The notes below the pieces were generated by a model. It was given only the letters and a program-made list of their open reading frames with translations. It did no database searches and was not told the DNA's origin. From Luteimonas deserti (lineage in GTDB: Bacteria > Pseudomonadota > Gammaproteobacteria > Xanthomonadales > Xanthomonadaceae), in the NCBI RefSeq assembly GCF_013425765.1, contig NZ_JACCJZ010000004.1, forward strand, positions 186,001 to 250,000: DNA of 64,000 bases. Reading direction: 5' to 3'. Below, piece by piece: positions 4,146 to 19,570 of this stretch (its first letter is position 1; each line of letters opens with the position of its first letter). The translations under genes were made by a program, and so were the position numbers.

Positions 4146-4420
4146 GGAGCGCTCCGGGACAGGTGGACGGGGAGGGATGCGGTGTCGTGCGCGCGCAGCC
4201 GGATGGCCGTGGACCGGGATGCACGCGGCGACGCTGGAGCGGGCACCGGGCACGGCGCGGGTCCAGATGGCGGCCGACCCTGCGCAGCCGCGTGGTCGAT
4301 GCGAGGCCTCGCCTGGCGGGTGGGAACCGGGCATGCGGGCATGGCGGTGCCGGGCATCGGGTCACTCGGCAGGACGGGGGCAGGCAGGCTCCCATCCGCC
4401 GCGTTAAGAAACCATCGCTA

Positions 4421-4456
4421 CTGGCGCCACCGGCGCCACCGGCGCTACTGGCGCTG
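4421..4456. repeat. Nine-base tandem repeat over the queF stop codon
   Basis: Four imperfect copies of a nine-base unit (CTGGCGCCA, CCGGCGCCA, CCGGCGCTA, CTGGCGCTG). The TAG stop codon of queF lies in the third and fourth units, so unit gain or loss would change the C-terminus of QueF by multiples of three residues. Confidence 0.75.
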
Positions 4457-12396: not shown

Positions 12397-13290
12397 GTGG
12401 CAATCAATCAGGAACAGCAGACCAGGATCGCGTCGGGCCAGGGCTTCATCGCCGCGCTCGACCAGAGCGGCGGCAGCACGCCCAAGGCGCTCAAGCTCTA
12501 CGGCATCGACGAAAGCGAGTACGGCACCGATGCCGAGATGTTCGGCCTGGTCCACGCGATGCGCACGCGCATCGTCACCAGCCCGGCCTTCAGCGGCGAG
12601 CGCGTGCTCGGCGCGATCCTGTTCGAGCGCACGCTCGACGACCAGTTCGACGGTCGGGACGCGGCCACCTACCTGTGGGACGTCAAGGGCGTCGTGCCGT
12701 TCCTGAAGATCGACAAGGGGCTCGAGGATGAGGTCGACGGCGTGCAGATGCTCAAGCCGATCCCGGGCCTCGAGGACCTGCTGGCGCGGGCCAAGGCCAA
12801 GGGCGTGTTCGGCACCAAGGAACGCTCGGTGATCAAGCAGAACAACGCGGGCGGCATCGGGCGCGTACTCGACCAGCAGTTCGAACTCGGCCGCCAGGTG
12901 CTCGCTGCCGGGCTGGTGCCGATCATCGAACCGGAAGTCGACATCAAGGCCGCCGACAAGGCCGAGATCGAGACTACGCTGAAGCAGGGCCTGATCGAAC
13001 GCCTGGATACGATCGATGCCTCGACGCCGGTCATCCTCAAGCTCACCTTGCCCGATGTCGACGGCTTCTTCCGCGAACTGGTCGATCATCCGAGCGTGCT
13101 GAAGGTCGTCGCGCTCTCCGGCGGCTACAGCCGCGACGACGCCAATGCGCGCCTCGCCCGCAATCCGGGCGTGGTCGCCAGCTTCAGCCGCGCGCTGACC
13201 GAAGGCCTGAGCGCGCGGCAGAGCGACGACGAATTCAACACCGCGCTCGATACCGCGATCGAATCGATCTACCGAGCCTCGATCGCCTGA
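12397..13290 (+). CDS. fda: Fructose-bisphosphate aldolase, class I bacterial type
   Basis: Cleaves fructose 1,6-bisphosphate to the two triose phosphates by a Schiff-base mechanism in glycolysis and gluconeogenesis. 297 residues, GTG start at 12397 with AGGATCT upstream. It matches the short metal-independent class I aldolases of bacteria: ALDQSGGSTPKAL near residue 20, FLKIDKGL near 107 and PIIEPEVDI near 175, with the lysine in the VILKLTLP strand near 212 as probable Schiff-base residue. It follows sodA by 86 bases and is closed by a terminator. Confidence 0.95.
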   Translation: MAINQEQQTRIASGQGFIAALDQSGGSTPKALKLYGIDESEYGTDAEMFGLVHAMRTRIVTSPAFSGERVLGAILFERTLDDQFDGRDAATYLWDVKGVVPFLKIDKGLEDEVDGVQMLKPIPGLEDLLARAKAKGVFGTKERSVIKQNNAGGIGRVLDQQFELGRQVLAAGLVPIIEPEVDIKAADKAEIETTLKQGLIERLDTIDASTPVILKLTLPDVDGFFRELVDHPSVLKVVALSGGYSRDDANARLARNPGVVASFSRALTEGLSARQSDDEFNTALDTAIESIYRASIA

Positions 13291-13314
13291 GCCTCCCATC
13301 CGGGCGGTCACCGG

Positions 13315-13341
13315 AAGCCGGCGCGAATGCGTCGGCTTTTT
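13315..13341 (+). terminator. Rho-independent terminator after fda
   Basis: AAGCCGGCGC pairs with GCGTCGGCTT (one mismatch) around a four-base loop, followed by a T run reaching 13341. It lies 25 bases past the aldolase stop codon. Confidence 0.8.
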
Positions 13342-14099
13342 CGTGCCGGACCAGCGGAGCGGCGTGCCGTGCAGGCGCGCCGCACTGCAGGCCGCGGTAC
13401 GGCAGGCGACGGCCAACGGGTACCGTCATCGCGTACCCCTGGGCGTTCGCATTCGAATCACACGTCACCGCGCCGCGGCCGTCGTCCTGGCCCTGCGTTG
13501 CGTCCATCCCGGAAGCGCCGAGAGGCGCAGTGATGGGCGCAGGAGCACCGTGCGAGGTATCAGTCACTGTGCGCCCCGCGTACGCCGGCCGATATTCGTA
13601 TCAGGTGGAGCGCGCGCAGCGATGGGGTGAACATTCCGGGGATGGTTGTTAGCGAAGCGTTCGAAACGCGGTGACCGGCGACGACATTCCCTGCAAGCGA
13701 CTGAACCCGTTCGGGCTGAATACGCTGGCTACACCGGCGTCTCCACGCGGTGCCGATAGCGTCGGAACCCATGGCTTTGCCTGGAGTTCCGACGATGTCG
13801 CAGCCCACTTTCGTGACCCATTACATGGTGCGCCGACCCGCGCAGACGAGTCGCGCGTCGACGCCGGCGCGCCGTGTTCCCGAGTCCGCCATCCGCGCGA
13901 TCCCGCTGCGGCGGTGCGATGCCGCTTCGTCCCGGAGCGACCCGGCCACCACCCGCACCGACGATCAGCGCCGTCCCCGATCCTCGATGTCGGCGCTCCG
14001 ATTCAGTTGAGCCCATGGGATGCAGGCATGCAGTGTCACGGCTCGCTCCGTCCGGCATCCGGTCGACGATGCAGCACCGACCTTCGCTCGGCTGCGGCG
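13342..14099. other. Gene-free stretch of about 760 bases
   Basis: Between the fda terminator and the mntR stop codon. Open frames on both strands lack motifs, signal segments and ribosome binding sites. No repeats or hairpins of note apart from the terminator at its left edge. Confidence 0.55.
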
Positions 14100-14597
14100 T
14101 TAGCGATGCGTTCCGGCGACGAACGCCTCGAACAGCGCCAGGGTCTCCGGACTGACGTGGTGCTCGATGCCTTCGGCATCGCGACGGGCGATCTCGGGCG
14201 GTACGCCGAGCGCAAGCAGAAAGGCTTCGACGGTCTGATGACGGGCGCGGCTGGCGCGCGCCAGGGCTTCGCCGGCTTCGGTGAGATAGGCGCCGCGATA
14301 CGGCTTCTGCCGTACGAGGCCGTCCCGCACCAGGCGCTGGAGCATGCGTGCGACGGTGGGCTGGGCCACGCCCAGACGCTCGGCGATATCGACCTGGCGG
14401 GCTTCGCCGCGATCGGCGACGAGGTCGGAAATCAGCTCGACGTAGTCTTCGACCAGTTCCACGCGGCGCGCTTCGCGCACCTGGCGGAAACTCTCCACGT
14501 GCACCCTGGCGTCGGGCAGCCCCGCGCTGGGTGAGGCGTGCTCCGGGGCGGGGCGGTCCAGGGCCTCATCGGCAGGCTTGGTCTTGCGAGCGGCCAT
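14100..14597 (-). CDS. mntR: Manganese-responsive transcriptional regulator MntR
   Basis: A DtxR-family regulator that senses Mn(II) and represses manganese uptake genes. 165 residues: a basic, disordered leader of about 35 residues, then a winged helix ([38 protein letters not shown]) and a dimerisation/metal-binding part with ETLALFEAF. His and Glu residues of the metal site ([19 protein letters not shown]) are present. The protein lacks the SH3-like third domain of DtxR, as expected for MntR. No mntH is visible in the window. A secreted Mn-type SOD gene lies 1.8 kb away, which is suggestive but not proof of a link. Confidence 0.9.
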
Positions 14598-14691
14598 GGA
14601 ACCGATCCAGCAGATGAGGCGCCATTGTCGCCGATCGTCCTCAGCGGCGTCCGGGCCGGCGCGTGCCGCCGGCCCGATGCGCGCGCGCGGC

Positions 14692-14787
14692 TCAGCGCTT
14701 GCGGTTGAAGAAGGTCAGCACCGCGCCGCAGACGACACCGATGAACAGCCCCAACGCAATCCACTGCAGGATCGACAGTTCGCTCAT
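14692..14787 (-). CDS. 31-residue single-pass membrane protein, copy 2
   Basis: [19 protein letters not shown]... ends in FFNRKR. One transmembrane helix with a short basic C-terminal tail. It is nearly identical to the gene at 15631-15726 (one Val/Ile difference) and lies inside the duplicated 212-bp segment. As in the other copy, its ATG overlaps a stop codon (ATGA), here that of a truncated thioesterase remnant. The substitutions between copies leave the protein almost unchanged, which argues that both encode real peptides or that they diverged under selection elsewhere. Confidence 0.7.
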
Positions 14788-14903
14788 GTCATGCCTCCCG
14801 GAAGCTGTGCCACCGGCGCCGGCCGGCCGCGTGCATCGAGGGCGATCATCACGAAGCGGCCGCGCGTGCACACTTCGCGTTCGCCGCTGAGCAGGTCCTC
14901 GGC
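14784..14903 (-). pseudogene. 3' remnant of an acyl-CoA thioesterase gene
   Basis: Forty codons (AEDLLSGEREVCTRGRF through [12 protein letters not shown]) repeat the C-terminus of the intact thioesterase at 15723-16127, with stop codon and ATGA junction preserved. No start, hotdog helix or active-site region is present, so it cannot be functional. It marks the far edge of the duplicated segment. Confidence 0.85.
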
Positions 14904-14937
14904 GATCTGAAGCCTTCCAACAACTGAGCCATCTCCG

Positions 14938-14950
14938 CCGGAAATTCCGG
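14938..14950. repeat. Perfect palindrome CCGGAAATTCCGG
   Basis: Thirteen-base perfect palindrome between the repeat edge and the lipoprotein stop codon. It could act as a weak terminator stem or a binding site. Nothing further supports either. Confidence 0.4.
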
Positions 14951-14991
14951 TAGAACAACCGGGGGACAAGTTGACTGTAAGAGCCCGATGG

Positions 14992-15534
14992 TCAACGTGC
15001 GGTTCCTGCGAAATTGATCTGTATGGCGGTGATGCACTCCGAACGGCCATAGAAGAATTTGATCTCACCGGTTGTCGTTCGTTCCGACATCCAGTCGAAA
15101 AAACTCGCTTTCTGCAATCCTCCCGACAGGCCATGCTCCACTTGCTGCACGGTGCCAGTGTCGCCGATTGAAAAATCCTTACGAACTGATTCTGCTGCAT
15201 AGCATGGCGAATCTTCGACACTCATGACGACCGATGAGGATTTAGAATAGTGAGGCAATCCTCTCCTGATGGAGACGTTGCTGAGTTTGAATGCGTCGCT
15301 GGTGATCAACGGTCCTAACTCAATCGTGGACTCGGGGGAGTCGATTTTTTCGCCGAACTTCGACACCAATGTTTGGTGCAAGGAGGCCGGCGATCTCGAA
15401 ATTTCAGCGACAAGAGTGCTCAGATCATCTGCCAGGCTGCCATCAAGGACGGGGTTGGTTGCGCAAGCCGTAGCGGACAACAACAAAGAAGATGCCGCTA
15501 TCGATAAAGATGATTTTCTGCGATTGATTTCCAT
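14992..15534 (-). CDS. Low-GC putative lipoprotein inside a direct-repeat bracket
   Basis: 180 residues, unknown function. Starts MEINRRKSSL, with a signal segment (SIAASSLLLSATAC) and lipobox Cys at residue 24, so an outer-membrane or periplasmic lipoprotein is likely. A good ribosome binding site (GGAGAGG) lies nine to ten bases before the ATG. The mature part has three Cys (SPCYAAES, SECITAI and the lipid Cys) and no family I recognise. GC content and codon choice (frequent AAA, ATT, TCG-poor) are clearly unlike the neighbours, a sign of transfer. It sits between two copies of the 212-bp repeat. Confidence 0.8.
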   Translation of the reverse strand: MEINRRKSSLSIAASSLLLSATACATNPVLDGSLADDLSTLVAEISRSPASLHQTLVSKFGEKIDSPESTIELGPLITSDAFKLSNVSIRRGLPHYSKSSSVVMSVEDSPCYAAESVRKDFSIGDTGTVQQVEHGLSGGLQKASFFDWMSERTTTGEIKFFYGRSECITAIQINFAGTAR

Positions 15535-15630
15535 CTCGAATCCCTCTCCATTGAGCTCACCCTAAGCATTTCTGTAACGTTCTGTATGGCTCACACATAC
15601 GACGTCGCCGGCGCGCTACGTACGCGCCGA

Positions 15631-15726
15631 TCAGCGCTTGCGGTTGAAGAAGGTCAACACCGCGCCGCAGACGATGCCGATGAACAGGCCCAACGCAATC
15701 CATTGCAGGATCGACAGTTCGCTCAT
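15631..15726 (-). CDS. 31-residue single-pass membrane protein, copy 1
   Basis: [19 protein letters not shown]... ends FFNRKR. One predicted transmembrane helix (about residues 8-26) and a basic tail, so the C-terminus probably faces the cytoplasm. The start overlaps the thioesterase stop (ATGA), placing it as the last gene of the nrd-flavodoxin-thioredoxin-thioesterase operon. Role unknown. A peptide this short is easily missed by automatic annotation, but its duplication with the reading frame preserved supports it. Confidence 0.75.
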   Translation of the reverse strand: MSELSILQWIALGLFIGIVCGAVLTFFNRKR

Positions 15727-15842
15727 GCCGCATCTCCGGGAAGTTGCGCCACCGGCGCAGGCCGGCCGCGCGCATCGAGGGCGATCATCACGAAGCGGCC
15801 GCGCGTGCACAGCTCGCGCTCGCCGCTGAGCAGGTCCTCGGC
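15631..15842 (-). repeat. Direct repeat, copy 1 (212 bp)
   Basis: The copy that is continuous with the intact thioesterase gene. Together with 14692-14903 it brackets 727 bases of low-GC DNA (14904-15630). See the other copy for the alignment. Confidence 0.9.
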
Positions 15843-16127
15843 CACCAGTTCCACTTCCACCTGCATCGAGGTGCGGCCCACTTCCACCACGCGCGCGATG
15901 GTTTCCACCAGCTGGCCCTGCTTGATCGGCAGCTTGAAATCCACCTGCTCCGAGCGCGCGGTCACCACGGTGCGGCGCGCATAGCGCGAGGCGGCGATGA
16001 AGGCGGCCTTGTCCATCCACGCCAGCGCGGTGCCGCCGAACAGTGTGCCCAGATGGTTGGTGTGATCGGGAAACACGATCTCCATCATCCGCGCCTCGGT
16101 CTCGGGCGCCTCAATGAGCGGTGTCAT
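15723..16127 (-). CDS. yciA: Acyl-CoA thioesterase, YciA-like hotdog protein
   Basis: Hydrolyses acyl-CoA to free acid and CoA in the cytoplasm. 134 residues from the ATG at 16127, which overlaps the preceding thioredoxin stop as TGATG (a TTG one codon upstream is also possible). The hotdog-fold signature is clear: FPDHTNHLGTLFGGTALAWMD near residue 20, then TARSEQVDFKLPIKQGQLVE and the strand VGRTSMQVEVELVAEDL. It belongs to the broad-specificity YciA/BFIT group. Its last 40 codons are repeated downstream as a pseudogene fragment. Confidence 0.9.
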   Translation of the reverse strand: MTPLIEAPETEARMMEIVFPDHTNHLGTLFGGTALAWMDKAAFIAASRYARRTVVTARSEQVDFKLPIKQGQLVETIARVVEVGRTSMQVEVELVAEDLLSGERELCTRGRFVMIALDARGRPAPVAQLPGDAA

Positions 16128-16471
16128 CAACCCGCGTCCGCCGCGGCGAAATGCGCCGCCACGGCCTGCGCGATCTGCGGCGGTGCCTGGAAGCCCGGCA
16201 GGCGCGCGGCTTCATTGCCGTCCTTGAACAGCGCCAGCGTCGGCGTCTGGCGCAGGCCCAGGTTCCGGAAGAAGTCTTCGCCGATCGTTTCCATCTTCAC
16301 CTTCAGCAGCGCGACGCCGGCGGCACCCTCGCTCGCGGCGAACTTCGCCAGCGACATGTCGAGCATCTTGCAGCCCGGGCAATCGTCCTTGTAGTAATCG
16401 ACGAGCAGGCGCGGGTGCGCGGCCAGTGCTGCGGCGTAGTCGTCAGGGGTGGAGGCGTGGAGCGTCTGCAT
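16127..16471 (-). CDS. Thioredoxin-family protein with CPGC motif
   Basis: 114 residues with a thioredoxin fold pattern: the strand LLVDYYKDDCPGCKMLD carries the Cys-x-x-Cys motif near residue 30, and RQTPTLALFKDGNE contains the cis-proline region. The motif CPGC differs from the usual CGPC, so redox potential and partners may differ. It overlaps the flavodoxin gene by 29 bases and the thioesterase start by one base. Given its place downstream of nrdAB, it may re-reduce ribonucleotide reductase, but this is inference from position. Confidence 0.85.
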   Translation of the reverse strand: MQTLHASTPDDYAAALAAHPRLLVDYYKDDCPGCKMLDMSLAKFAASEGAAGVALLKVKMETIGEDFFRNLGLRQTPTLALFKDGNEAARLPGFQAPPQIAQAVAAHFAAADAG

Positions 16472-16937
16472 GGGGGGTGGTCTCGATCGGTGTGTCGGCA
16501 ATGCCGAGGATGTGGTCGGTCCAGCGTTGGATGTTGGCGGCGTCGCGCTCGCCGTGCGGCATCTGCTCGATTTCCAGCCGCTGATAGGGGGAGGCGAAGA
16601 ACGCGGCGATGCGCCGCGCCGCGCCGCAGTAGTACTCCTCGCCCCACTGCGTCTCGCCGGTGCCGAACACCGCGACGCGCTCCGGCTTGCCCACCGCGGC
16701 GACGAGGTCCTCGATGAAACGCTTCATCTCCGGCGGCGTGCGCCCGGCGTTGATGCTCCAGCTGCCGAGCACGTAGAGATCGTGTTCGGCGCCTTCGGGG
16801 CAGGCCTTCGCCAGCGTCTGGATATCGGCATCGATCCAGGTGATGGCATGGCCCAGCGCCTCGCACCGTGCGTGAATCGCACGCGCGACATCGCGGGTGT
16901 TGCCGCTGAGCGATGTGTGGGCGAGGAGGATGCGCAT
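16443..16937 (-). CDS. Flavodoxin-like protein of the nrd operon
   Basis: 164 residues. The N-terminus MRILLAHTSLSGNTRDVA holds the FMN phosphate-binding loop (SxSGNT), GSWSINAGRTP corresponds to the first aromatic loop, and FGTGETQWGEEYYCGA to the second flavin loop. A flavodoxin next to nrdB could supply electrons for regenerating the tyrosyl radical cofactor, as YfaE or NrdI does elsewhere. It is longer than typical NrdI. The ATG lacks a recognisable ribosome binding site, since the 35 bases upstream are A/T-rich sequence belonging to the ATPase insert, so the insertion may have replaced the native leader. Confidence 0.85.
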   Translation of the reverse strand: MRILLAHTSLSGNTRDVARAIHARCEALGHAITWIDADIQTLAKACPEGAEHDLYVLGSWSINAGRTPPEMKRFIEDLVAAVGKPERVAVFGTGETQWGEEYYCGAARRIAAFFASPYQRLEIEQMPHGERDAANIQRWTDHILGIADTPIETTPHADAPRLHP

Positions 16938-16972
16938 TTATCGCGTAGTTTTAAGGGGTTTTGTACTTACAT

Positions 16973-18220
16973 TTAGGTACTGCTCACGTCGCCCCAGCGC
17001 AGGTAAAACGCAAAAAAAGGATCAGTGATGTGAAGCTTCTTATCGCTCTCGTCGAAGTCGATCACGGGCGTCGAGCTCTGGTCCGTTGAAGCAATGGTTG
17101 CCATGTGCTTCAGTACGCGAGCTACTTCATGCAGCTGTGGAATGTTGCCGCTAATTACTTCACGGATGGCCGCTCGCAGATCTTCATATTCAAGCGTGAC
17201 CAGGTCGGGCTTAAGGTGCGCAAGCGCATGAATCACGAGCTGGTAGATATCTGCTTCGCCACCTGACTTCAGGGTTCTCTTTACGCGGTCGGATCTTTGC
17301 CTGGGGCCTTTGGCGAGCTTTTCGAAGATCGGTCGGCCGATGGTGTTGGCTACCTCTCTGTAGATCGGAGAGGGATCAAAATCTAAAGCAAGTTCCTTCG
17401 TCTTTGACTGCGCGATATGGCGCGCGATTCCACGACAGAACTCTTGCATCAAATGTGGGCTTCCGATCGCTTCTTTGGAGATCAGCGCCGCGATGGAATC
17501 GGGAACCTTGATGCCGAGCAGGGGGAATCCTTTGGTCGGGATGAAGGAGAGCTCCTTCTCATCCCAAGTGGGAATCGTCATGGGAAGCATCCTTCCCGTC
17601 ATCTCACGCTCAACGCGCACCGCGTCGTATCGACGGTGAGGGATGGCGATTAGAACTACGGGCACCCCGTCAAAGACTAAGGGCTTTAGCGCACGGACGA
17701 TTCCGCCCTGAAGATTCTTCGGAAGGTAGTGAAAATCATCAATAACCAAGGGGACATTGGCTTCGCGAAGTGCTGTAAGTGCGGCAACCCGATTTGAGAC
17801 TTTGCGGGCACGGCCCGCGCTCGTACTCCTGTTTCGCTCGTGCTCGGCGCCAACCTCACCCTCGCCCTTGGCGACGATGAAATTTGCACTTGCCGTGCCT
17901 TTTCCAGAAATCGTGGAGGAACTCCCACTTTCGCTGGCTGAATGATGTTCCGTGTACGCATCTAGCTGCTCGAGAACAGATGTCCAGAGGTCGTCTTCGG
18001 CATCAACCATCCCGCCATCGACCCATACTGATTCATTCAGTGGAAGAACTTTTCGAGTAAGAACGGTCTTTCCTGACTTGGTGTGGCCGGTGACCGTTAC
18101 AAGCTTGCATAGGTTGCTTTTTACCTCGGAAATTTGGTCCTCAATTTTCCAAGAGTCGCGAGGGTTGTACGTGTGACGCGGAAAGCCGCCAGGAACAAAG
18201 ACGTCTGAATACTTAAGCAT
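16973..18220 (-). CDS. Orphan P-loop ATPase inserted in the nrd operon
   Basis: 415 residues. The start MLKYSDVF is chosen because GGAAAGGA lies about eight bases upstream of the ATG at 18220. Walker A is GHTKSGKT (residues 45-52), Walker B is VPLVIDDFHYL (157-167), and VVLIAIPHRR fits a sensor strand. A Ser/Gly/Lys-rich insert lies between them (about 90-140). The C-terminus has a helical part and the closing HITDPFFAFYLRWG, like the winged-helix end of archaeal-type/DUF234 and STAND-like ATPases. GC content and codon use are far lower than nrdB and flavodoxin on either side, so it was probably acquired. Function unknown; a role in phage defence is possible but unproven. Confidence 0.85.
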   Translation of the reverse strand: MLKYSDVFVPGGFPRHTYNPRDSWKIEDQISEVKSNLCKLVTVTGHTKSGKTVLTRKVLPLNESVWVDGGMVDAEDDLWTSVLEQLDAYTEHHSASESGSSSTISGKGTASANFIVAKGEGEVGAEHERNRSTSAGRARKVSNRVAALTALREANVPLVIDDFHYLPKNLQGGIVRALKPLVFDGVPVVLIAIPHRRYDAVRVEREMTGRMLPMTIPTWDEKELSFIPTKGFPLLGIKVPDSIAALISKEAIGSPHLMQEFCRGIARHIAQSKTKELALDFDPSPIYREVANTIGRPIFEKLAKGPRQRSDRVKRTLKSGGEADIYQLVIHALAHLKPDLVTLEYEDLRAAIREVISGNIPQLHEVARVLKHMATIASTDQSSTPVIDFDESDKKLHITDPFFAFYLRWGDVSST

Positions 18221-18280
18221 TAGAGATCCTTTCCATAGCATAGATATTTTAGTCAGATCAGGAAGAAGGTAGATAACGGT

Positions 18281-19330
18281 TCAAAGATCATCGAACCCGT
18301 TATCCGAATTCGTCTTCTTGTACGACGCATTCCGCATCTCGAAGAAGTCCGTCTTGGTCTCGGTGAAGTTGTCGGCGTAGGCCTTGATCCACGGCATCAC
18401 GTTCTCGTTCGATTCGCTGTAGAGCTTCTCGATGCCGAGCATGCCGGCCATCTTGTTGGCGCGGTACTTCACGTAGCGGACCATTTCGTCGACGTCGATG
18501 CCGTCGATGCCGTCGAGCACTTCTGCCGTCCAGCGCGTCTCGAGTTCGATCGCGTGCTCGAAGGCCGTGTGTACGTATTCGGTGAGTTCGTCGCCCTGCA
18601 GGCTCTGGTTCTCGCCGACGATGGCGCGGATCAGTTCGCTGATGAACTTGCTGTGCGCCAGTTCGTCGCGGTTGATGAAGCTGATGATCTTGCCGGTGCC
18701 GGTCATCCGGTTCTGGCGGACCAGGTTGTAGAAGTAGGCGAAGCCGGAATAGAAGTTGATGCCTTCGAGGATCGACGACTGCACCAGCGAGCGGATCAGC
18801 GTTTCGGCCGAGCGCTCGCGCATGAAGTCGTTGTACGAATCCATGATCGGCTGGTTGCGCGCGATGATCGTGGGATGCGTGCGCGCGAGTTCGAACACGC
18901 GGTTCTGGTCGGCCAGACCGGTGATCGAGGCCAGCACGTAGCTGTAGCTCTCGTTGTGGATCACTTCCTGCTGACCGATGATCGCGGCGTTGGCGTGCGC
19001 GGCCGGGTCGGTGATGTATTCGGCGACGTTGTAGATGAAGCGCGTCTGCGGCGAATCCAGCGTGGCCAGCAGGCCGATGATCGAATCGTAGGCGTTCTTC
19101 TCGCGCGCCGAGAGCTCGCCGTACTGCTTGGCGTCGCCCTTCATGTCGACCTCGTCCGGAATCCAGAAGTTGGTCGAGAGCTCCTTGTAGGCGCGATAGA
19201 ACGACGGATACGGAATGTCGTTCCAGTTGAGGATGCCGCTGGTCTGGCCGTTGATGATGCCGGTGGAGCGGTTGGGGTGACGCGGCTCGAGGATCTTGAT
19301 GCGGTCGAGCGGGGTGGACGTAACGGCCAT
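18281..19330 (-). CDS. nrdB: Ribonucleotide reductase class I, small (radical) subunit
   Basis: Forms the diiron-tyrosyl radical that is passed to NrdA for deoxyribonucleotide synthesis. 349 residues. All six metal ligands are visible: Asp in LLATLDSPQ, Glu and His in QQEVIHNESY, Glu in SILEGINFY, and Glu/His in NRDELAHSKF. The radical Tyr is in HNESYSY, four residues after the ligand His. The C-terminal tail (ASYKKTNSDNGFDDL) would dock on NrdA. It is 331 bases downstream of nrdA, an unusually large gap filled with palindromic repeats. The orphan ATPase gene follows 60 bases later. Confidence 0.96.
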   Translation of the reverse strand: MAVTSTPLDRIKILEPRHPNRSTGIINGQTSGILNWNDIPYPSFYRAYKELSTNFWIPDEVDMKGDAKQYGELSAREKNAYDSIIGLLATLDSPQTRFIYNVAEYITDPAAHANAAIIGQQEVIHNESYSYVLASITGLADQNRVFELARTHPTIIARNQPIMDSYNDFMRERSAETLIRSLVQSSILEGINFYSGFAYFYNLVRQNRMTGTGKIISFINRDELAHSKFISELIRAIVGENQSLQGDELTEYVHTAFEHAIELETRWTAEVLDGIDGIDVDEMVRYVKYRANKMAGMLGIEKLYSESNENVMPWIKAYADNFTETKTDFFEMRNASYKKTNSDNGFDDL

Positions 19331-19411
19331 GTGCGGTTTCTCGTGTCTGAAGTCTCGCGCGACGTCGAATCGCGCGACGGAAAAGTCTCGCGCGGTGAGG
19401 GATCGCGCGAC

Positions 19412-19485
19412 GGTGTCGGAGTCACTTCCGGCTAATGGACGTTCCGTCAGCCGATGCGGCGCGTCCGGAAAGTGACTCTGACACC
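19412..19485. repeat. Long palindrome 1 in the nrdA-nrdB spacer
   Basis: GGTGTCGGAGTCACTTCCGG (19412-19431) pairs with 19465-19485 with one mismatch and one bulged base, around a 33-base loop. The core GGAGTCACTT is a word I associate with dispersed intergenic palindromes of Xanthomonadaceae. Confidence 0.8.
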
Positions 19486-19570
19486 TTGCTGTTTCTTGAA
19501 GCTCGCGCGATGCGGGGATCGTGCGAGTGCCGGCTTTCGAAGCGTCGCGTGGTGGGGCACCGCGCGTACG

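Follow-up and report, generated by a model that had tools for sequence, protein, structure and literature searches.

An orphan gene for a putative lipoprotein lies within the ribonucleotide reductase operon of Luteimonas deserti, between two diverged copies of the operon's end, and we estimate a probability of about 0.55 that it entered when a donor fragment bearing its own version of that end was integrated through homology on one side. Import of the lipoprotein gene together with an operon end would make the locus a good illustration of an already known type of event, and is the most likely, if not the only, reading of it. On that reading the locus would show a step that is usually invisible, in which a single foreign gene enters a working operon, leaving it unbroken, with no evident mobile element; an orphan gene accompanied by a diverged partial copy of a host gene would then be a usable marker of such an event. 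The window (the whole stretch of 64,000 nucleotides that was analysed) is held by a 366-kb contig of a 3.72-Mb genome. On its minus strand the genes run in the order nrdB-like, 422-aa ATPase, flavodoxin, thioredoxin, intact thioesterase, small membrane gene, lipoprotein gene, startless thioesterase tail, second small gene and mntR, where nrdB is the name we presume for the anchor gene at 18281..19330. The features of the locus are as follows.

14100..14597, minus strand: mntR, manganese-responsive regulator (NCBIfam PRK11050.1, E 1.5e-69), the conserved downstream neighbour
14667..14903, minus strand: repeat copy 1, 237 bp, made up of the headless thioesterase tail, the second small membrane gene and 25 bp of spacer
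14784..14903, minus strand: truncated thioesterase tail, codons 97-135 plus stop (tblastn residues 96-132 at 94%; codon comparison)
14692..14787, minus strand: small membrane gene, copy 1, 31 aa, with one amino-acid difference from copy 2
14904..15605, no strand: inserted non-repeated DNA, 702 bp (727 bp counting the 25-bp weaker repeat end)
14992..15534, minus strand: orphan putative lipoprotein gene, 180 aa, 50.6% GC, no family match
15606..15842, minus strand: repeat copy 2, 237 bp, running on into the intact thioesterase gene
15631..15726, minus strand: small membrane gene, copy 2, 31 aa, its start overlapping the thioesterase stop
15723..16130, minus strand: intact acyl-CoA thioesterase-like gene, 135 aa (PF03061, E 1.9e-20)
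16127..16471, minus strand: thioredoxin-like gene, trx (PF00085, E 1.7e-10)
16443..16937, minus strand: flavodoxin gene (PF00258, E 5.1e-7)
16973..18241, minus strand: 422-aa ATPase, the second cargo gene, between nrdB and flavodoxin (PADLOC PDC-S59, E 1.7e-28; AAA_16, E 2.4e-6, below Pfam's cut-off; 53% GC)
18281..19330, minus strand: nrdB-like gene, the syntenic anchor, in the same order in relatives

The gapless match between 14692-14903 and 15631-15842 that an earlier, sequence-only reading of this DNA had described was recovered exactly, with 18 differences in 212 bp (91.5% identity). It continues ungapped for 25 bp past the small-gene stop codon, giving a full repeat of 237 bp (14667-14903 and 15606-15842) with 89.5% identity, an E value of about 1e-87, no indels between the copies and 25 differences scattered along its whole length. 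Chance similarity of the copies is ruled out by this E value, and a fresh tandem duplication by the 18 differences per 212 bp. The 727 bp between the copies had been called low in GC with one lipoprotein gene, which also stands (51.9% GC vs 69.9% for the window; longest frame, 180 aa). The roles given to the two copies have to be exchanged: copy 1 had been taken for the real 3′ end of the thioesterase gene and copy 2 for a displaced version, but the complete frame (15723-16130, minus strand) ends in copy 2. Copy 1 comprises thioesterase codons 97-135 and the stop with no start, followed by the second 31-aa membrane gene, which adjoins mntR; it is a stranded tail in its ancestral place beside mntR, and the working gene now ends with copy 2. 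A scan for promoter and terminator consensus sequences gave no more matches than shuffles, over which RNA folding at the junctions likewise brought no clear improvement (best z −1.8).

We screened 480,000 bases of the host genome (80,000 in overlapping window pieces and 400,000 from elsewhere) for direct repeats of at least 60 bp and at least 80% identity, spaced 50-4000 bp apart. Four pairs were found, one of them the repeat studied here, which was the only one of the four seen to enclose low-GC DNA; of the other three, two were inspected, the remaining pair lying in L165. A second pair lies within two adjacent genes of what we take to be the ExbD-like family, and a third, judged by eye, is apparently a dispersed repeat. 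When 120 stretches (the window and L038-L156, several genomes being present twice) were compared with themselves, direct repeats overlapping the tested operon genes appeared at three loci, namely this one and those of G005 and G006. In G005 (L043, reverse-complement 4378-4450; seen twice, in L043 and L083) a 73-bp copy of the flavodoxin start, 90% identical, lies between trx and the thioesterase gene, just ahead of the latter. The G006 locus (L044, reverse-complement 2062-2166) has a 105-bp flavodoxin-start copy between a cargo gene and the intact flavodoxin gene, after which comes a short GGGGTCAG-type repeat.

A thioesterase match was present in 44 of 52 genomes of the genus, the host included, and our comparison covered 37 of the 43 others, with 39 stretches (the matching genomes G017, G035, G037, G038, G039 and G041 were left out); 2 of the 40 stretches examined are without a full thioesterase gene, L037 being the lipoprotein locus and L076 a decayed gene. 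Most of the named records whose thioesterase comes closest are of Luteimonas, and the relatives include Luteimonas sp. BLCC-B24 (G044), Luteimonas sp. 4-12 (G005), Lysobacteraceae NML93-0793 (G032), Luteimonas sp. 9C (G045) and Luteimonas terrae (G047). The small gene stands behind the thioesterase in 10 of the 37 genomes. In seven relatives (G044, G045, G032, G011, G047, G005 and G006) the order thioesterase, small gene, mntR is undisturbed, with an estimated 20-306 bp from the small gene to mntR and no cargo gene, and given this order the insertion is most simply read as derived in the host genome. Other cargo between the same repeats, which the sequence-only reading had suggested looking for in relatives, did not turn up: the 237-bp repeat occurs in this one only of the 120 stretches, and different cargo at the junction of small gene and mntR is absent from all seven relatives having that junction.

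Elsewhere in the operon, insertions of 0.6-2.1 kb lie between trx and the thioesterase gene in L042 (G047), L051 (G036), L053 (G007) and L055 (G001), G047 and G036 both having there, on the minus strand, a 373-377-aa frame whose start is similar. About 2.9 kb separates the thioesterase gene from mntR in L049 (G042) and L051 (G036), with a 733-aa minus-strand frame. In L076 (G023) the operon thioesterase gene has lost its middle part, and a more distant thioesterase (74%) is found elsewhere in the genome.

A tree of 12 rows (the two copies and the 10 relatives having the small gene) placed the copies as sisters with support of 85/86, which is not starred, and G044 and G032 next to them. Such clustering had been named beforehand as the mark of plain local tandem duplication, and to that extent the prediction was borne out, but an alternative tree joining copy 2 to G044/G032 was not rejected (p 0.26) and one joining copy 1 to G044/G032 was borderline (p 0.055). 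The sister placement keeps local duplication alive; it would also be expected if the donor lineage were closer to the host than any genome compared. The copies differ by 8.5% (18/212), copy 2 and copy 1 being 91.0 and 88.2% identical to the nearest species, G044 (9.0 and 11.8% different), while G044 and G032 are 93.9% identical to each other over the repeat (6.1% different). Bases common to both copies, for example GCC at the codon before CTC GAT, are seen in 0 of the 10 other species of the alignment.

Across the first 36 codons of the tail the copies differ by seven silent changes and one amino-acid change. In simulations of neutral drift with 8 changes, one or no amino-acid change arose at P 0.00045-0.0013, and with the 6 changes assigned by eye to the branch of copy 1 at P 0.005-0.014, in a test of small sample in which copy 2 is under selection throughout. 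All five differing positions in the last three tail codons change the amino acid, and this end is also variable in the working genes of relatives. The silent-change bias, together with the species-level difference, suggests that the copies most likely diverged inside two working genes and that the truncation is recent, although this falls short of proof. The earlier claim that the copies came from different lineages rather than from a fresh duplication gains from the species-level difference and the mostly silent changes, and loses from the sister placement in the tree (85/86). Just before the repeat, at codon 96, copy 1 has ATC, as do 15 of 33 relatives, and copy 2 has GTG, which may reflect either different alleles or a 4-bp match at the junction. 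The GATC before the repeat matches the sequence of codons 95-96 in many relatives. A fragment cut at GATC and ligated was considered and dropped, there being nine GATC sites in the 939-bp unit.

Recombination in the operon is indicated independently by trx. The trx gene of the host (G000) falls in a starred set of two rows (99/95) and by path length is closest to G005; a grouping of G000, G044 and G032 is rejected for this gene (p 7.5e-5). Taken in steps of 80 bp, the first 240 bp of the gene match G005 at 98, 95 and 99% identity (G045 and G011 come to 96% in the second of the three steps); the 80-bp steps of flavodoxin and thioesterase are 71-95% identical to G005. These 240 bp most likely derive from a G005-related lineage and would represent a recombination tract. 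The thioesterase groups with G044/G032 (98/83, starred), in phylogenetic conflict with trx among the flanking core genes, and the operon is, to judge from such comparisons, a recombination mosaic. Homologous recombination at the operon, which the sequence-only reading had offered as the simplest idea, thus finds support outside the repeat itself.

The trees of mntR and fba (the latter our presumed name for that anchor gene) are unresolved for the host genome and offer no choice of which copy came from the donor. For mntR the grouping of G000, G044 and G032 is not rejected (p 0.28), and its marked sites are common to G005 alone in 29 cases, to G044/G032 alone in 17 and to neither in 37. Identity between host and G044 is 82.8% for mntR, 90.1% for the thioesterase gene and 87.6% for fba, the corresponding values for G044 vs G032 being 95.1, 95.3 and 95.9%. 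The spacer behind copy 1 is nearest to G005 (81 of 114 alignment columns; G044, 63 of 99). Repeat sites favour G044/G032 over G005 by 14:8 in copy 1 and by 15:6 in copy 2, and since both copies lean this way about equally they show no clear-cut change of ancestry from one side of the insert to the other. Genes of the ComEC and DprA families are present in the host genome, which is weak evidence for competence because ComEC also occurs in 10 and DprA in 11 of 14 control genomes, E. coli included.

The 180-aa frame (14992-15534, minus strand) has, by eye, a lipoprotein-type signal peptide, and its signal cysteine, C24, is conserved in the lone homologue. Searched up to E 1, Pfam, NCBIfam and PADLOC had nothing that matched the protein, and PHROGs had one match (E 0.05). 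A search for the lipoprotein elsewhere, as the sequence-only reading had proposed, yielded a single clear homologue among 395 genomes of the family, in G042, with 62% identity and at an unrelated site (L037 4895-5515), where it lies in a lower-GC stretch with a transposase core fragment (PF13683) at a distance of about 0.7-1.1 kb. Profile searches of 398 genomes of the order and 369 of the class gave no clear homologue; these samples overlap that of the family, and G042, reported by neither, is therefore absent from both. No relatives were found in genome_contigs, viral contigs, plasmids or phages. Matches in G212 (E 0.0085) and G313 (E 0.0066) were treated as chance, as was one in G506 that is short and has internal stops. 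A structure model built from the two sequences was too poor for use (mean pLDDT 44). Our guess at the function is an accessory trait of the cell envelope.

For the origin of the insertion we infer a donor from a related Luteimonas-like lineage, whose fragment would have consisted of its own thioesterase tail and small membrane gene followed immediately by the lipoprotein gene. Taken up by natural transformation, the fragment would have entered the host operon by recombination needing homology on one side only: it may have been small and circularised and crossed over once, or it may have recombined homologously at one end and been joined illegitimately at the other. The outcome would be the order intact thioesterase, small gene, lipoprotein, headless tail, small gene, mntR. 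That the insertion brought its own version of the gene end had been suggested from the sequence alone, and agrees with the undisturbed order in seven relatives, the species-level difference between the copies and the mostly silent changes in the tail. Against one-sided import stand the sister placement of the copies, the lack of a clean ancestry switch, the failure to find a donor (none of the 395 family genomes has the order thioesterase, small gene, lipoprotein), the changes in the last three codons and the lack of a visible deletion.

Single crossover of a circularised fragment would fit the locus better than homology-facilitated illegitimate recombination (HFIR), because HFIR usually leaves deletions and single crossover leaves duplications; here all neighbouring operon genes are present, DNA is duplicated and no deletion is visible. 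Single crossovers of circularised fragments give duplications of 109-950 bp according to an excerpt of PMC3240628, the case described there being small plasmids in E. coli in the laboratory, and the 237 bp found here fall within that range. As in such Campbell-type integration, the cargo lies between direct repeats of a homologous segment and a site-specific recombinase would not be needed; unlike the laboratory single crossovers, the copies have a divergence of about 9-11% and the event is read from one genome. Such a crossover would make each copy a chimera that changes between host and donor sequence at the exchange point; the 25 differences are spread along the repeat, and neither a donor genome nor an empty strain of the host species turned up among the genomes compared. 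HFIR, described in the same excerpt from naturally competent bacteria and as usually deleting host DNA, would resemble the locus in its one homologous and one illegitimate end, in inserts of around 1 kb and in the possible 4-bp match (GATC) at the illegitimate junction, the microhomologies of HFIR being mostly 3-10 bp. As a rule HFIR also costs the recipient about as much DNA as is inserted, whereas here there is a duplication and none is visibly lost.

We consider it somewhat unlikely that the structure arose by an old local duplication of the thioesterase tail and small gene, the lipoprotein gene arriving between the copies then or later and the copies drifting apart. The copies are mutually closest (85/86) and have bases in common that are absent from the ten other aligned species, as such a history would predict, and short duplicated pieces of operon genes also occur in G005 and G006; but silent changes make up 7 of the 8 differences in 36 codons of the headless tail (P about 0.001) although that tail has no evident function in coding, there are no indels despite a difference of about species level, and the low-GC orphan gene would still require an outside source. 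That the structure was built in another strain and swapped in ready-made, by double recombination in the flanking core genes, seems to us quite improbable. It would suit a mosaic operon that recombines between species, and hotspots free of mobile elements that change through recombination of flanking core genes are described in an excerpt of PMC5635113; however, the structure is in no other genome searched, and its origin would merely be shifted elsewhere. The likeness to those integrase-free hotspots lies in accessory genes between conserved genes, a recombining flank and a contig without a tyrosine integrase match, whereas at this locus the accessory genes are single ones within a housekeeping operon, and one of the inserts comes with a partial copy of its neighbour.

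Placement of the gene by a mobile element, whether as an integron cassette, by an integrative element using the 3′ end or as the remnant of a transposon, is very unlikely. Integrative elements do restore the 3′ end of a gene with incoming DNA, and the G042 homologue does lie close to a transposase core fragment. Repeats made by integrases are, however, usually short and near-identical, and the 366-kb contig has no match to the tyrosine integrase family PF00589 (six are on other contigs), as the sequence-only reading had anticipated. An integrase gene of the tyrosine type, as carried at the end of a site-specific element in a 3′ end, is thereby missing from the contig. An integron cassette would be expected to have an attC site behind the gene and an integron integrase; the observation for it is the same lack of a PF00589 match on this contig. 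The two ends of the insert are not paired by any inverted repeat of 20 bp or more, Rfam gave no match in 13000-19500, and the gene had no viral, plasmid or phage match. One-sided import of a fragment with its own operon end is the reading that we prefer to these three.

The same operon has another slot, between nrdB and flavodoxin, which is a more promising lead than the repeat-flanked insertion. In the window this gap (16938-18280) is filled by the 422-aa ATPase matching PADLOC PDC-S59, and across Luteimonas and Xanthomonas it holds varied low-GC, co-directional cassettes of one or two genes (window, L038-L041, L043, L044, L046, L048, L055, L061, L081, L110, L111, L113, L115, L117, L132, L141 and L146), different cargo at the same junction being present in relatives. 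Among loci with both nrdB and flavodoxin in hand, with repeated genomes counted once, the gap is filled in 12 of 31 Luteimonas and 8 of 22 Xanthomonas loci. Filled gaps measure 0.8-1.9 kb, with 44-55% GC and a co-directional longest frame. The other 19 Luteimonas gaps are of at most 128 bp (16) or of 441-479 bp (3), and the other 14 from Xanthomonas comprise 12 of 85-224 bp, one of 302 bp (with an 89-aa frame) and one of 574 bp. PADLOC matches at E 2e-5 or better were obtained for 8 of the 11 cargo proteins scanned (from 21 frames), some over a shared domain only, and the cassettes appear defence-like. The slot suggests the operon as a place to seek hitherto unknown single-gene defence systems in Xanthomonadaceae.

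Excerpts of PMC10250203 describe core defence hotspots of Pseudomonas aeruginosa to which the slot is comparable, with defence-like genes between constant core genes and no single evident mobilising element. Those hotspots have medians of 6-26 kb, in contrast to one or two genes per site here; unlike them, the nrdB-flavodoxin slot is inside an operon, co-directional and in two genera, and its defence role is predicted. A search of the open-licence literature found no report of an nrdB or ribonucleotide reductase hotspot in Xanthomonas, and the main text of a paper on defence islands of Stenotrophomonas maltophilia (PMC11680222) contains no words starting nrd.

A bolder and unlikely interpretation is that the ribonucleotide reductase operon of Luteimonas and Xanthomonas offers a docking site, free of recombinases, to exchangeable single genes of which many are phage-defence-like, with the main slot behind nrdB and an occasional slot at the tail, and that the lipoprotein is a new envelope defence or exclusion factor travelling with its own copy of the operon end. 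If so, that copy would spare the operon on landing, and the direct repeats would permit loss of the gene again.

Some cassettes are common to the two genera. G044 and three Xanthomonas records have a pair of genes of 232 and 158 aa at 83-85% DNA identity; G045, G013 and X. dyei have a 278-aa gene at 83-84% identity. For nrdB and flavodoxin the pairs compared between genera show 86-90% identity, above the cassettes, and because the flanks are more alike than the cassettes this sharing is no evidence of recent transfer of cassettes between the genera; old presence with loss, or exchange along with the flanks, fits as well.
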